A stretch of DNA of 64,000 bases from Pseudodesulfovibrio thermohalotolerans (lineage in GTDB: Bacteria > Desulfobacterota > Desulfovibrionia > Desulfovibrionales > Desulfovibrionaceae), in the NCBI RefSeq assembly GCF_021353295.2, contig NZ_CP120635.1:3055501-3119500 (forward strand), in the 5' to 3' direction. The notes beneath the pieces were generated by a model. It was not told the origin of the DNA. It made no database searches and saw nothing but the letters and a program-made list of their open reading frames with translations. The translations under genes were made by a program, and so were the position numbers. This document shows, piece by piece, positions 15,131-54,314 of the stretch; position 1 is the stretch's first letter, and every line of letters begins with the position of its first letter.

Positions 15131-15652
15131 GTGCACTTACATGAGACTCCGGTGCTTGAAGCAATCCGGGAACGCCGCTCCATCCGCCGGTTCACGAACG
15201 AACCCGTGACCCGGGAGGAACTCGCCGCCATCCTGGAAGCGGGCCGATGGGCCCCCAGCGGCCTGAACAACCAGCCCTGGCGGTTCCTGGTGATCGCCCG
15301 CGATGATCCGCGCCGCGAGAAGCTGGCCGGATGCACCAAGTACGCGCGCATCGTCCGCGCCTCGGCCGCCTGTGTATGCGTATTCCTCGAAAAGGCGTCC
15401 ATGTACAGCGAGATGAAGGACCACCAGGGAGCTGGCGCATGTATCCAGAACATGCTTCTCGCCGCTCACGCCCTGGGACTCGGCGCGGTCTGGCTCGGCC
15501 AGATCGTCAACGACCAGCCCGCGGCCCTGTCGGCCCTGGGACTTTCCGAATCCGAATTCGAACTCCAGGCAGTTATCGCCCTGGGACACCCGGACCAAAA
15601 GGGCGATTCCACCCGCAAACCTCTCTCCGAACTGATGTTGGAGGATTATTAA
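15131..15652 (+). CDS. Nitroreductase-family FMN oxidoreductase
   Basis: 173 aa from a GTG with AAGGAG nine bases upstream. Family signature RRSIRRFTNEPVTREELAAILEAGRWAPSGLNNQPWRFLV binds FMN with the RRS and APS/NxQPW residues; C-terminal half has AGACIQNMLLAAHALGLGAVWLG and VIALGHPDQ. Likely a dimeric NAD(P)H-dependent flavoenzyme. It leads a tight plus-strand cluster: its TAA meets the ATG of an MBL hydrolase, then comes the selenoprotein and a flavodoxin-like reductase, so a redox-themed operon. Confidence 0.9.
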   Translation: MHLHETPVLEAIRERRSIRRFTNEPVTREELAAILEAGRWAPSGLNNQPWRFLVIARDDPRREKLAGCTKYARIVRASAACVCVFLEKASMYSEMKDHQGAGACIQNMLLAAHALGLGAVWLGQIVNDQPAALSALGLSESEFELQAVIALGHPDQKGDSTRKPLSELMLEDY

Positions 15653-16272
15653 TGAATATAACCACCATCCCCCTGGGGCCCCTGCAGACCAACTGCTACA
15701 TTCTGGCCAACGGCAAGGAAGCCCTGGTCGTGGACCCCGGCGGCGACCCCGCGCCCGTGCTTGAATACCTTGAGAACGAAGGGCTGACCCTGACCGTCAT
15801 CCTGAACACCCATCTGCATTTCGACCATACCGCCGGCAACAAGGCGCTCTCCGACGCCACGGGCGCGCCCATCATGGCCAACGACGCGGACGGCTACCTC
15901 ATGGACACCTGGCTGGGCAAAGGCGGAGACATGGGCCTGCCGCCCATCGCCCCCTACAAATGGCAAAACCTCGAACAGGGCGAAACCGCCTTTGCCGGGG
16001 CGGCCTGCCGCGTCCTCCATACGCCGGGCCATTCACCGGGCAGCCTGACCTTCCATTTCCCGGACGCCGGGACCGCCTTCGTGGGCGACCTGATCTTCTA
16101 CCGCTCCATCGGGCGCACCGACTTTCCGGGCGGCGACATCGAGGCGCTCAAGCGGTCTGTCAACGAACACATATTCACCATGCCGCCCGAAACCCGGCTG
16201 CTTTCCGGCCACGGCCCGGAAACTTCGGTCGGAGACGAGCGCAACCACAATCCGTTTTTCGGGGGATTCTGA
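15652..16272 (+). CDS. Metallo-beta-lactamase-fold hydrolase (glyoxalase II-like)
   Basis: 206 aa; ATG shares bases with the upstream stop (TAATGA). The metal-binding motif is THLHFDHTAGN, with further ligands in HTPGHSPGS, FVGDLIFYRSIGRTD and LLSGHGPET. Short form of the glyoxalase II-like group, without the long C-terminal helical domain. Probably a thiolester hydrolase in the cytoplasm. Two bases separate its TGA from the ATG of the selenoprotein gene, which indicates translational coupling. Confidence 0.92.
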   Translation: MNITTIPLGPLQTNCYILANGKEALVVDPGGDPAPVLEYLENEGLTLTVILNTHLHFDHTAGNKALSDATGAPIMANDADGYLMDTWLGKGGDMGLPPIAPYKWQNLEQGETAFAGAACRVLHTPGHSPGSLTFHFPDAGTAFVGDLIFYRSIGRTDFPGGDIEALKRSVNEHIFTMPPETRLLSGHGPETSVGDERNHNPFFGGF

Positions 16273-16274
16273 CA

Positions 16275-16517
16275 ATGAGCGAACCCGTTAGCATCGACAT
16301 TCGCGACAAGTGTTGAGGGGTGGGACTGGAGGTAGGTTGGTACCTCCGTTTCGCCCGCGCCGACAGGATTGAAGCCCTGGTCTCCCTCAAGGGAGTCGCC
16401 CAGGTGCGCCACGAGGAGCACGTGTTCCCGGACTGGACCTTCGAGATCGAAGAATTCGAGGACCACGCCAGGGCGGTCATGACCAGGAAGAAACCAGTAT
16501 ACGACAAGGAGCCGTAA
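16275..16517 (+). CDS. Putative small selenoprotein, in-frame UGA as Sec (80 aa)
   Basis: Reading from ATG 16275 gives MSEPVSIDIRDKC, then TGA (16314-16316), then 66 more sense codons in the same frame to TAA. The product would be 80 aa with a Cys13-Sec14 pair. The TGA is followed by a SECIS-like hairpin (16328-16347). The ATG lies two bases after the MBL stop and the TAA abuts the ATG of the next gene at 16518, so only readthrough makes the spacing fit the operon. Downstream codons look like normal coding: GWYLRFARADRIEALVSLKG, VRHEEHVFPDWTFEIEEF. A tRNA-Sec gene occurs at 54221. I do not recognise the family. Neighbours (nitroreductase, flavodoxin-like) suggest a redox role. If the readthrough were wrong, a 13-aa peptide plus a separate 65-aa frame from GTG 16320 would remain. 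Confidence 0.8.
16317..16347 (+). promoter_or_regulatory. Bacterial SECIS-like hairpin
   Basis: GGAGGTA (16328-16334), loop GGTTGG (16335-16340) and TACCTCC (16341-16347) make a perfect 7-bp stem. The loop begins 18 nt after the TGA, within the range known for bacterial SECIS elements, and begins with G residues as SelB recognition needs. This recodes the TGA at 16314 as selenocysteine. Confidence 0.78.
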
Positions 16518-17129
16518 ATGAGCCGCGCCGCCGTCTTCGCCTGCTCCCACCGCCGGGGGGGAAACTCCGACAGGGCCGCCGAGCTCCTGGCCGAAGGCGT
16601 ACGCCGGGCCGGGGGCGAGGCCGACGTCTTCTACGTGCGCAACTACGAAGTCCTGGCCTGCCTGGCCTGCGGATACTGTGACGTCGCCGAGCGGCAGGGC
16701 ATCACGCGGTGCGTCCTGGGCCCCAAGGATCAGGCCTGGGATCTGTTCGAGCACTGCCTGACCGCCAGGACCATCCTCTTCGCCTCGCCCATCTACTTCT
16801 ATCATCTGCCGTCCCGGCTCAAGACGTGGATAGACCGGGGCCAGCAGTTCTGGCGGGCGAGGCTGGACAACGAGCCGTGGATCGCGGGCCTGCCCCGGCG
16901 CACGGCCCACGCGGTCCTTGTCGCCGGTCAGCCATCAGGGGAAAAGCTCTTCGACGGAGCTCGGCTGACGCTCAAATACTTCGTCCAGAATTTCAATATG
17001 GACCTGGCCGCCCCCCTGACCTTCCGGGGACTGGACACCCGCGAAGATCTCCACGCCGAGTCCGACTCCGCCCGACGGATCGCGGAGCTGGGCGAAAGGG
17101 CCTGGACCACGGCCTTAGAAGAGGCCTGA
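16518..17129 (+). CDS. Flavodoxin-like NAD(P)H-dependent oxidoreductase
   Basis: 203 aa; its ATG directly follows the selenoprotein TAA. FMN-reductase fold: AAVFACSHRRGGNSDRAAELLAEGVRRAGGEADVFYV, the Cys-containing CLACGYCDVAERQG typical of iron-sulfur flavoproteins and their relatives, and FASPIYFYHLPSRLKTWIDRGQQFW. The Cys motif here is C-x2-C-x2-C, so the protein may hold a cluster or disulfide. Binding to FMN is likely. Located in the redox operon with the selenoprotein. Confidence 0.87.
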   Translation: MSRAAVFACSHRRGGNSDRAAELLAEGVRRAGGEADVFYVRNYEVLACLACGYCDVAERQGITRCVLGPKDQAWDLFEHCLTARTILFASPIYFYHLPSRLKTWIDRGQQFWRARLDNEPWIAGLPRRTAHAVLVAGQPSGEKLFDGARLTLKYFVQNFNMDLAAPLTFRGLDTREDLHAESDSARRIAELGERAWTTALEEA

Positions 17130-49325: not shown

Positions 49326-51836
49326 CTAGGCTGAACCAAGCTCGTTGATGAGTCCGTCGAGCTCCTGGGCGATGGAGTTCAATTCATGGCAGGCCTGCGC
49401 CGACTGCGTCATGGCCTGACTGGTGTTATCGGAGATGCGATGCATTTCCTCGGTGGCCCGGGTGATCTGCTCCGAGGTGGACGACTGCTCTTCCGCAGCC
49501 GTGGCGATGCCCTGCACCTGCCTGGCGGAACCGCGCGAGAATTCGACGATCTCGGCCAGGGACTGACCAGCCTCTTCGGCCAGGGACGTACAGGTATCCA
49601 GCACCTGGGCCACCTTGTCGGTCTCGGCGACGTTGCGCTGGGACATGGTCTGGATGGCTCCGATGGCACTGCCAACCTCGGTGGTGGCCACCATGGTCTT
49701 CTCTGCCAGCTTCCGGACTTCATCGGCAACCACGGCGAACCCGCGCCCGGCGTCGCCCGCCCGGGCCGCCTCGATGGCCGCATTGAGCGCCAGTAGGTTG
49801 GTCTGGTCAGCGATGTCGTTGATGACGGTCATGACCCGGCCGATATCATCCACCTGTCCGCCAAGTTCGCCCATATTGGCCTTGAGCCGTGAGGCCAGCT
49901 CGCTGACCTCGTTGACCGAAGCGACCACCTTGGTCACCACGTCGTGCCCGGCCATGGCCTGGCCCTCGGCCTGCTCCGCGTTCAAAGCGGCCTCGTTGGC
50001 GTTGCGCGCCACCTCCAGAACGGTGGCGTTCATCTCCTCCATGGCCGTCGCTGTCTCGGTGGCGCGGTCGCTCTGCTCCTCTGCGCCGCCACGGGATTCC
50101 TCCACGCGCACGGAGAGCTGCTCCGATGCGGAAGTCATGCGCTCGGAAAGCATCCCCGCCTGATCGGCAACGCGCTGCATCTTGCGCTGCGAATCGAGAA
50201 TATCGGTCTGATCCACGATGACCTCAAGCGCGCCCACCACCCTGTCGTTCTCGTCGCGAAGGGGGCTGGCGTATCCCTTGATGTCCACCTCGCCCGAGAT
50301 CAGCTTGCCCCGGGTGGAGCCCACAACCCGCTCCATGACCTGCATGGCCCTGGTGCAGACGCAGTCCTTTGTCCGGCAGATGTCGGTGTTGAACACCTCG
50401 CTGCACGGCTTGCCCATGAGTTCGCCCACCTCCTGCCCGGCAATCTCGCTGGCATTGCGGTTGACAAAAAGGAGATTATGGTCGCGGTCAACGGTGAAGA
50501 TCGGGAACGGGAAAGAGTCGAAGGTCGCCGTGTAGGTGTCGGCCACGCGGTTCATGCTCTGAATGAGCTGGGCGTAGGCCCCCTCGTAGCGGCTTGCGTC
50601 TCCCCGGGACCGGACCACGCCGTGCGCAACCTCGCGGGCCGTGGCCTCACAATCGTCGATGAGCTCGCTGAGCGTCACGGGAATTCGGCTGACGGAACGA
50701 TGAATGGACCCGATCTCGTCGCGGCTGGTGACGGCCTCGCCCTGATCCAGGTCTCCGCGCGCCACTCGCTCGGCCAGGGCGCGGATTTTATCCAAAGGCC
50801 TAAACACGGCGTAGCGCATGACTCCGAGCAGAGAAAGCATGGGCAAAAGCACGGCCAAAGCGAAGAGGACCAGAACCAGGAACACAACGCCGTCCAGAAT
50901 GGCATTCAGGACGGAAATATCGCGGGCCAGGGTAATAACGCCAATGGGTTGGCCCTGGTAGTCCTGCACAGGCAGATAGACCACTGCATAATTGCCGGCC
51001 AGCGTGACGAACCGCCCGCCAGCAGCCTTGTGCAGCATGTCCGCCGTGACCTTGGCATCCAGATCGCCGTTCGCCTTGCCCGCCACGCGAACAAAGGAAT
51101 TGCCGACCAGGGGATACTTTTTCGGGTCCTGCAATTTGGTTGTGGTAGAAAGCAGGGAGGCGTCCATATATAATGTATAAAAGCTCCCCTTCTCGTCCTT
51201 GAAAAGCCTGAACACGTCCTCGTAGCTCTTGAGGACCTCGACCGAACCGAGCTGCCTGCCCGACTCGTCCTTGACCGCCACCAATCCTCGGATGGCGAAA
51301 CCGCTGCGGCCGGGCTCGATACCCCGCCGAGGCTTGCCGTCACGGTTCACATCCAGAACGGTCTTGCGGAAACTGGAAATGTCATCCGACACGTCCATCC
51401 ACTTGCCGTTGCGCTTTGCCTGCTTGTCGCGCCACATGCGCGCCAGGCTCCGTCCGTTGGGCAAATGAAAGTGGAGCCTCAGCTTCTCACCGAGCGCGGC
51501 CTCGTACCCGTCCAACACGGGCTTGAGCTCGGCTCGCAGGGCCTCGCGGGCACTCTGCACGACCGGGTCGCTTTCGTCGGCGAGATTCCCCTGGTGCGCC
51601 AGGGAAAAAGCCCGGATCACGGAAGGCATCCGCCCGAACAGGGCAGCTTCCTCCTGGGCCCGGAGCGCGGCGTCCTCAGTGTTCAATGTCAGGGTCTTGG
51701 CCGCATTCCCCACAAGCATCTCGGCGAAGGATGTCCGCAACTCGCCGAATTGCCCGGTCAGCAGATAAACCCCGATGCAGCCTATCAGCAGCACCAGCGC
51801 CGCCGAAGGCAACAGAATCTTGTACTTGATACTCAT
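49326..51836 (-). CDS. Methyl-accepting chemotaxis protein with Cache, HAMP and PAS
   Basis: 836 aa. TM1 at residues 8-28 (ILLPSAALVLLIGCIGVYLL), a periplasmic Cache-type domain to about 310, TM2 (LDGVVFLVLVLFALAVLLPMLSLLGV), HAMP with the RPLDKIRALAERVARGDLDQ start, a PAS near 440-560, then the MA signalling domain with the hairpin tip VVTVI..DIADQTNLLALNAAIEAARAGDAGRGFAVVADEVRKLAEKT. In the PAS a Cys cluster CSEVFNTDICRTKDCVC may bind a cluster or react to redox. No C-terminal CheR pentapeptide. Ligand unknown. Confidence 0.93.
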   Translation of the reverse strand: MSIKYKILLPSAALVLLIGCIGVYLLTGQFGELRTSFAEMLVGNAAKTLTLNTEDAALRAQEEAALFGRMPSVIRAFSLAHQGNLADESDPVVQSAREALRAELKPVLDGYEAALGEKLRLHFHLPNGRSLARMWRDKQAKRNGKWMDVSDDISSFRKTVLDVNRDGKPRRGIEPGRSGFAIRGLVAVKDESGRQLGSVEVLKSYEDVFRLFKDEKGSFYTLYMDASLLSTTTKLQDPKKYPLVGNSFVRVAGKANGDLDAKVTADMLHKAAGGRFVTLAGNYAVVYLPVQDYQGQPIGVITLARDISVLNAILDGVVFLVLVLFALAVLLPMLSLLGVMRYAVFRPLDKIRALAERVARGDLDQGEAVTSRDEIGSIHRSVSRIPVTLSELIDDCEATAREVAHGVVRSRGDASRYEGAYAQLIQSMNRVADTYTATFDSFPFPIFTVDRDHNLLFVNRNASEIAGQEVGELMGKPCSEVFNTDICRTKDCVCTRAMQVMERVVGSTRGKLISGEVDIKGYASPLRDENDRVVGALEVIVDQTDILDSQRKMQRVADQAGMLSERMTSASEQLSVRVEESRGGAEEQSDRATETATAMEEMNATVLEVARNANEAALNAEQAEGQAMAGHDVVTKVVASVNEVSELASRLKANMGELGGQVDDIGRVMTVINDIADQTNLLALNAAIEAARAGDAGRGFAVVADEVRKLAEKTMVATTEVGSAIGAIQTMSQRNVAETDKVAQVLDTCTSLAEEAGQSLAEIVEFSRGSARQVQGIATAAEEQSSTSEQITRATEEMHRISDNTSQAMTQSAQACHELNSIAQELDGLINELGSA

Positions 51837-54220: not shown

Positions 54221-54314
54221 GGAAGCGTTTCGGCACCGGTGTGTCGCTTGGTCTTCAAAACCAATGTGTGGCAGTGATGTCACGGGCAGGTTCGACTCCT
54301 GTACGCTTCCGCCA
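54221..54314 (+). tRNA. selC: tRNA-Sec (selC, anticodon TCA)
   Basis: 94 nt. An 8-bp acceptor stem (GGAAGCGT with ACGCTTCC), long D-arm, anticodon loop CTTCAAA with TCA, extra-long variable arm, T-arm CAGG-TTCGACT-CCTG and encoded CCA. All marks of tRNA-Sec. Needed for UGA decoding by SelB; supports the selenoprotein at 16275. Known integration target, and an accessory block begins right behind it. Confidence 0.95.

Follow-up and report, generated by a model that had tools for sequence, protein, structure and literature searches.

In mammalian thioredoxin reductase, a Gly-Cys-Sec-Gly tail forms the C terminus of the flavoenzyme itself. Several bacterial selenoproteins also place Cys directly before Sec; Table 1 of a selenoprotein catalogue from 2026 that covers 119 families (PMC13188914) lists this CU motif for SaoL, SaoC, SaoB, KCU-star, MbdU, the Csac_0668 family, and HgcA. 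TusA relays a persulfide from Cys19 to MnmA (PMC5372717), and YeeD and TusA proteins combine two helices, a four-stranded sheet, and a CPxP motif (PMC11073785). Selenoproteins without Cys homologues have been called scarce, with selenoprotein A and a Geobacter cytochrome candidate given as examples (PMC1914089).

The gene analyzed here, which we name selX for convenience, lies at positions 16275..16517 of a 64,000-nucleotide window (the whole stretch of DNA that was studied) from Pseudodesulfovibrio thermohalotolerans, on the forward strand like every feature given below. Judging from its sequence and that of its homologues, selX is almost certainly a selenoprotein gene. It shares the Cys directly before Sec with the CU-motif selenoproteins, whereas the domains listed for these in the catalogue set it apart. 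The vicinal Cys-Sec pair followed by Gly, found in the company of a flavin enzyme, recalls mammalian thioredoxin reductase. This is a resemblance only: unlike that tail, the selX product would be a separate small protein, with Cys-Sec in a loop near its N terminus. As with selenoprotein A and the Geobacter candidate, nearly every member of the family has UGA; unlike these two, the selX family is represented by more than 100 distinct loci, has a clear SECIS-like hairpin, and is accompanied by a related family of Cys-type paralogues.

None of the models in NCBIfam 20 matched the selX product up to E 10. When 21 family members were used, NCBIfam returned two matches up to the same limit (E 0.062 and 0.088), neither to a selenoprotein model, and the best Pfam match was a DUF at chance level (E 0.038); no model of either database fits the family. 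Table 1 of the 2026 catalogue has no recognizable family of this kind and no TusA-like entry. Membership of a listed selenoprotein family was rejected on the NCBIfam scans and this table, in keeping with the preliminary description, in which no known family with a CU-GVGLEVGW core could be named. TusA and SirA were absent from two older selenoprotein catalogues in a term search, and literature searches on SirA/TusA selenoproteins, new families, Desulfovibrio, and Pseudodesulfovibrio, with subscription journals mostly uncovered, listed no recognized report of the family. Apparently undescribed, it is widespread in sulfate-reducing bacteria and their relatives.

The family was probably missed because some methods need Cys or known Sec homologues, and direct Cys members are almost absent. 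The deep-Sep criteria require such homologues, and the accessible part of that report has no new selenoprotein for Desulfomicrobium orale DSM 12838 or Salidesulfovibrio onnuriiensis IOR2 (PMC12013277). We infer these to be our genomes G196, whose member (L148) has an intact frame, and G023, whose member (L086) has an in-frame TAA. The present data add a selenoprotein family carried by 138/247 sampled genomes of the class, more than half, and, in other parts of the phylum, two distantly related subfamilies that also have UGA. They also show how annotation can drop or truncate UGA-containing genes; standard annotation would cut selX at the stop codon.

Reading frame, UGA codon, and hairpin of selX

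The selX frame comprises 80 codons, from an ATG at 16275 to a TAA at 16515-16517. Its codon 14 is an in-frame TGA at 16314-16316, directly after a Cys codon, and rereading the sequence bore out the claim that the frame stays open for 66 codons beyond it. The upstream gene ends with a TGA at 16270-16272 and the downstream gene begins with an ATG at 16518; thus, the read-through frame abuts both neighbors, in agreement with what had been described. In 30 same-genus sequences, pN/pS is 0.29 for codons 2-13, compared to 0.28 and 0.40 in the parts after the UGA. The part of selX 5′ of the UGA is coding and under purifying selection at the protein level.

UGA occupies the site in 106 of the 107 distinct loci of the window family. 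Homologues starting after the TGA, or lacking Cys and Sec at position 14, had been named in the preliminary description as evidence against a selenoprotein. The homologues instead share the upstream codons and the UGA, and Sec or Cys is conserved at that position. If the UGA were an ordinary stop, it would close a 13-codon leader ORF, and a separate protein would start at the GTG just after, for which a GTG-start frame of 65 amino acids is indeed present in the window. Of 106 loci, however, only 58 have GTG at this codon, and 25 have Leu or Ile, and the stop with a downstream start was rejected on this lack of conservation. Selection on the codons before the UGA, a stop that is TGA in 106/106 loci with a SECIS-like hairpin at a fixed register, and co-occurrence with selB likewise argue against a leader ORF and make it very improbable.

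The hairpin (GGAGGTA-GGTTGG-TACCTCC) spans 16328..16347, with a 7-bp stem and the loop GGUUGG. Its coordinates, perfect stem, and loop stand as first described, whereas the distance of 18 nt from the TGA applies to the loop, and the stem starts at 11 nt. A scan of the 244 UGA-interrupted frames in the window retrieved qualifying hairpins in six, selX included, and the stem of selX was the longest. The second-longest, a 7-bp stem with the loop CGATG at 49417 (+), belongs to a frame without other support and is probably a chance occurrence.

Across the window family, the register of the hairpin is fixed. In an alignment of 52 diverse UGA loci (A6), 92.9% of cells are paired, compared to 39-68% when the partners are slid by 1-3, and five of the seven stem pairs have changed on both sides. 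The covariation score is 0.219 versus 0.133 after shuffling, and 0/500 shuffles came up to the observed score; over all five measures used, the observed value was reached by 0/500 shuffles on four and by 1/500 on the fifth. Pair 19-30 is the clearest: A at 19 (an Ile codon) is matched by U at 30 in 28/28 loci, and of the 78 loci with G at 19, 52 carry C at 30, 25 carry U, and one carries G, position 30 being the third base of the Tyr/His codon. The weakest pair, 21-28, is formed in 37/52 sequences.

Codon usage in the stem-loop also differs from that later in the same genes. Val is encoded by GUA in 53/70 cases versus 7%, Gly by GGU in 65/84 versus 11%, Leu by CUC in 95/106 versus 14%, and Arg by CGU in 71/102 versus 9%; since these sequences are related by descent, p-values for the codon bias overstate their independence. 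Synonymous divergence is halved in the hairpin (pS 0.32 versus 0.63 and 0.64 elsewhere). With its fixed register, covariation, and strong synonymous constraint, the hairpin behaves as a bacterial SECIS element would.

Selenium machinery, distribution, and Cys counterparts

The window encodes tRNA-Sec at 54221..54314 (+), where the preliminary description had placed it; ARAGORN predicts the gene, and Rfam RF01852 matches 54221-54310 with 79.6 bits. Absence of selA or selB had been named there as counterevidence. The genome carries both, about 1.7 kb apart, as well as selD with one TGA of its own. Within the class, selB (E ≤ 1e-60) was found in 213/247 genomes, i.e., in 134/138 UGA-type genomes versus 79/109 others. 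In the four UGA-type genomes without it (G099, G224, G237, and G252), a lenient search for selB over the curated cut-off also retrieved none; these assemblies are fragmented (230-510 contigs), and either gene loss or assembly gaps may account for the absence. In genus g15, no genome has a selX or Cys-paralogue match though many have selB, indicating loss or absence in the whole genus.

Among 60 genomes, including that of P. thermohalotolerans, 47 match selX, with 48 matches, 47 of which have TGA. A profile of 21 members (A2) searched against the 247 class genomes matches 140, and 138 of these have the UGA form; the other two are G251 (Cys-type) and G082 (paralogue only). The family core reads D-[ILV]-R-x-[KQT]-C-U-G-[VIL]-x-x-E-[VI]-G-W-[YH]-L-R, with exceptions. 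In an alignment (A3) of 53 of the 107 loci, i.e., the 54 under 68% identity minus L086, D8, L24, and position 14, where L084 has Cys in place of Sec, never vary, and Cys13, E19, R25, and W54 are almost as constant. L086, in genome G023, is a decayed-looking copy whose in-frame TAA falls after the Sec region, and its genome has selB; it was excluded from A3, the tree, and the hhalign profiles and retained in the SECIS and gene-order counts. In L090 (genome G119), Gly replaces Cys before Sec (G-U-G) on a long tree branch, and the mechanism may differ.

The sole direct family member found without UGA is L084, which has Cys-Pro-Cys with a one-residue shift at the site. Its genome is 85% complete, and selB over the cut-off was not found there. 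The locus next to it in the tree, with support of 100/99, is the UGA-containing L151 from the same genus, and the hairpin folds at -10.9 kcal/mol in L084 compared to -18.4 in L151. This lineage bears on whether the residue inserted at the UGA could be an ordinary amino acid instead of Sec. A conserved in-frame stop alone does not name the residue and would allow such read-through. A lineage in which Cys codons stand at the site of the UGA and the hairpin is weaker argues against it, as do the covarying SECIS hairpin, selB co-occurrence, and the paralogues, which have Cys there too. This reading was rejected on SECIS and selB, and we give it virtually no credence. Decoding of the UGA as Sec is, in our judgment, next to certain. 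The proposal of a probable new small selenoprotein translated through an in-frame UGA is thus supported by the UGA in homologues, the SECIS, the machinery, and Cys/Sec at the site.

The paralogues (L225-L258, with L255 from P. thermohalotolerans itself) make up an apparently undescribed small Cys-type TusA-like family. Cys occupies the Sec site in 34/34 loci by reading of the sequences and in 33/34 by a script pattern. D, C, G, and P around the site are common to the eight members that were aligned, and six of these eight are without Cys at the position preceding the reactive one; therefore, parts of the superfamily do without a vicinal pair. The paralogue profile has stop-free matches in 68/247 genomes, that of P. 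thermohalotolerans included, and it picks up the members with UGA as well (E 1e-5 to 1e-8). A Pfam scan of six proteins (five Cys paralogues and L084) gave a single match at E 0.13. In 20 of the 34 loci, the ORF immediately before the paralogue gene ends in C[IV]GK, the C-terminus of mnmE; one of these ORFs is MnmE by Pfam, and the rest are assigned from their C-termini. In the tree, the paralogues fall inside the UGA-type rows. Because support is weak and the columns are few, Sec is only suggested as the older state in the superfamily.

Beyond the class, the A3 search of the phylum matched 8/395 genomes, two of them outside the class and both with UGA. From these, two distant subfamilies were recognized, B (A-D-Y-R-x-D-C-U) in 18/55 genomes and C (I-D-S-R-x-D-C-U) in 24/46, with TGA in each listed match. 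A joint B and C profile matches 31/395 phylum genomes from 21 genera, again with TGA in each match. With the window family as A, the hhalign probabilities are 95.5% for A-B, 96.4% for A-C, and 98.5% for B-C. Both subfamilies were analyzed on 30 fetched loci (L191-L220) of 43 matches. Reading of these loci revealed hairpins near the same place, and the gene neighbors are other than those of selX. In subfamily C (L206-L220), by eye, hydrophobic stretches precede the core, several ending in a lipobox-like Cys. These proteins may therefore act outside the cytosol, and C could represent a separate subfamily of exported selenoproteins. A dihydrouridine-synthase-like gene is located just downstream of the subfamily C frame in 13/15 loci by eye, one of which was confirmed with Pfam.

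Predicted fold, neighboring genes, and a proposed role

AF2 modeling of the window family (pLDDT 92.6, pTM 0.81) predicts strands at residues 5-9, 31-36, 54-60, and 65-71 and helices at 16-26 and 38-50. The order predicted in this way, b-a-b-a-b-b, corresponds to the strand-helix order of TusA. The predicted two helices and four strands are common to TusA/SirA proteins (PF01206), YeeD among them, and D-x-R near the end of strand 1, with the reactive residue (Sec in selX, Cys in TusA) six after the Asp, is a further likeness to TusA. The model thus makes a TusA-like fold of the selX product likely, and we hold it with good confidence. The selX product differs from TusA in having Sec in the place of Cys, one more Cys in front, and Gly instead of the Pro that follows; CPxP is absent, and the motif in its place is C-U-G. 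In Pfam scans up to E 10, the selX product did not match TusA (PF01206), nor was TusA among the families listed for the 21 members, and membership of Pfam TusA was rejected for want of a model match.

An hhalign comparison against a TusA profile, built from the 18 of 30 loci where a motif script located the gene, aligned Sec to the TusA Cys and Gly to Pro. The probability was 31.6%, and none of 300 column shuffles came up to the score of 23.0, the highest reaching 18.0; when subfamilies B and C were compared by themselves, the probability was about 2%. PDB sequences searched with a profile of the selX family yielded no match.

Upstream of selX, at 15652..16272 (+), is the gene of a metallo-beta-lactamase (MBL)-fold hydrolase (PF00753, E 1.5e-33). 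Downstream, at 16518..17129 (+), is that of an NADPH-dependent FMN reductase/flavodoxin-fold protein with a CLACGYC motif (PF03358, E 9.4e-12; PF02525, E 2.5e-9). Within the fetched flanks, a same-strand MBL match lies upstream in 91/107 loci and a same-strand FMN-reductase match downstream in 97/107. The order MBL-selX-FMN reductase is kept in 91/107 loci, 10 loci are without both neighbors, and 6 more are without the MBL gene. Reductase frames were extracted from 103/107 loci (at least L001 and L151 in the wrong frame), and CxxCxxC is present in 83 of these 103.

These features suggest a mechanism. Under the direction of the hairpin that follows the UGA, SelB and tRNA-Sec would translate selX through this codon as Sec. 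The 80 residues of the product would form a single domain with the topology of TusA, in which strand 1 runs into a D-x-R-x-x-Cys-Sec-Gly loop. Sec would thereby stand at the place of TusA's reactive Cys, next to a Cys able to form a selenenylsulfide. As a small carrier, the protein may load its Sec with a chalcogen, either S or Se, or with an electron pair, with the adjacent Cys resolving the Sec-bound state, the flavin reductase encoded next door resetting the carrier, and the MBL-fold hydrolase acting in the same pathway. Taken as a whole, Sec decoding, a TusA-like fold, and the carrier mechanism are our preferred explanation and somewhat probable. That the product is a carrier reset by the flavin reductase, as its anatomy and gene order could indicate, is a tentative proposal. 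As to the chemistry, the indications pull in different directions: the TusA persulfide relay and the mnmE-linked Cys paralogues would point to chalcogens, and the hydrophobic leaders of subfamily C would speak for a more general redox role.

A selenoprotein of a plainer kind deserves weight at this point. The selX product may be a thiol/selenol oxidoreductase that reduces disulfides, peroxides, or an electrophile and carries no S or Se, its TusA-like fold being a mere scaffold. The adjacent Cys-Sec pair and the NADPH-FMN reductase next door fit a reductase relay, and action of subfamily C outside the cytosol would keep it away from tRNA/cofactor sulfuration. Set against this are the Cys paralogues behind the mnmE C-terminus, a context close to the known pathway of TusA, and the paralogues without a Cys before the reactive one. 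We regard such an oxidoreductase as a possibility to be taken seriously, though a doubtful one.

Extending the carrier mechanism, the selX family could be a selenium-based counterpart of TusA, a relay moving S or Se as a Sec-bound adduct, with the neighboring Cys to resolve it and a flavin reductase dedicated to its reset. The family would then belong to a superfamily across the phylum that is ancient and uses Sec almost exclusively, that includes hydrophobic-leader forms maybe acting outside the cytosol, and that gave rise to the Cys versions next to mnmE. We consider this broad picture unlikely as it stands. If the TusA-like reading is true, selX would allow a direct test of the idea that, in a sulfur relay, the site carrying the chalcogen can be taken over by selenium. 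The genome of P. thermohalotolerans also has two ordinary TusA-type genes.
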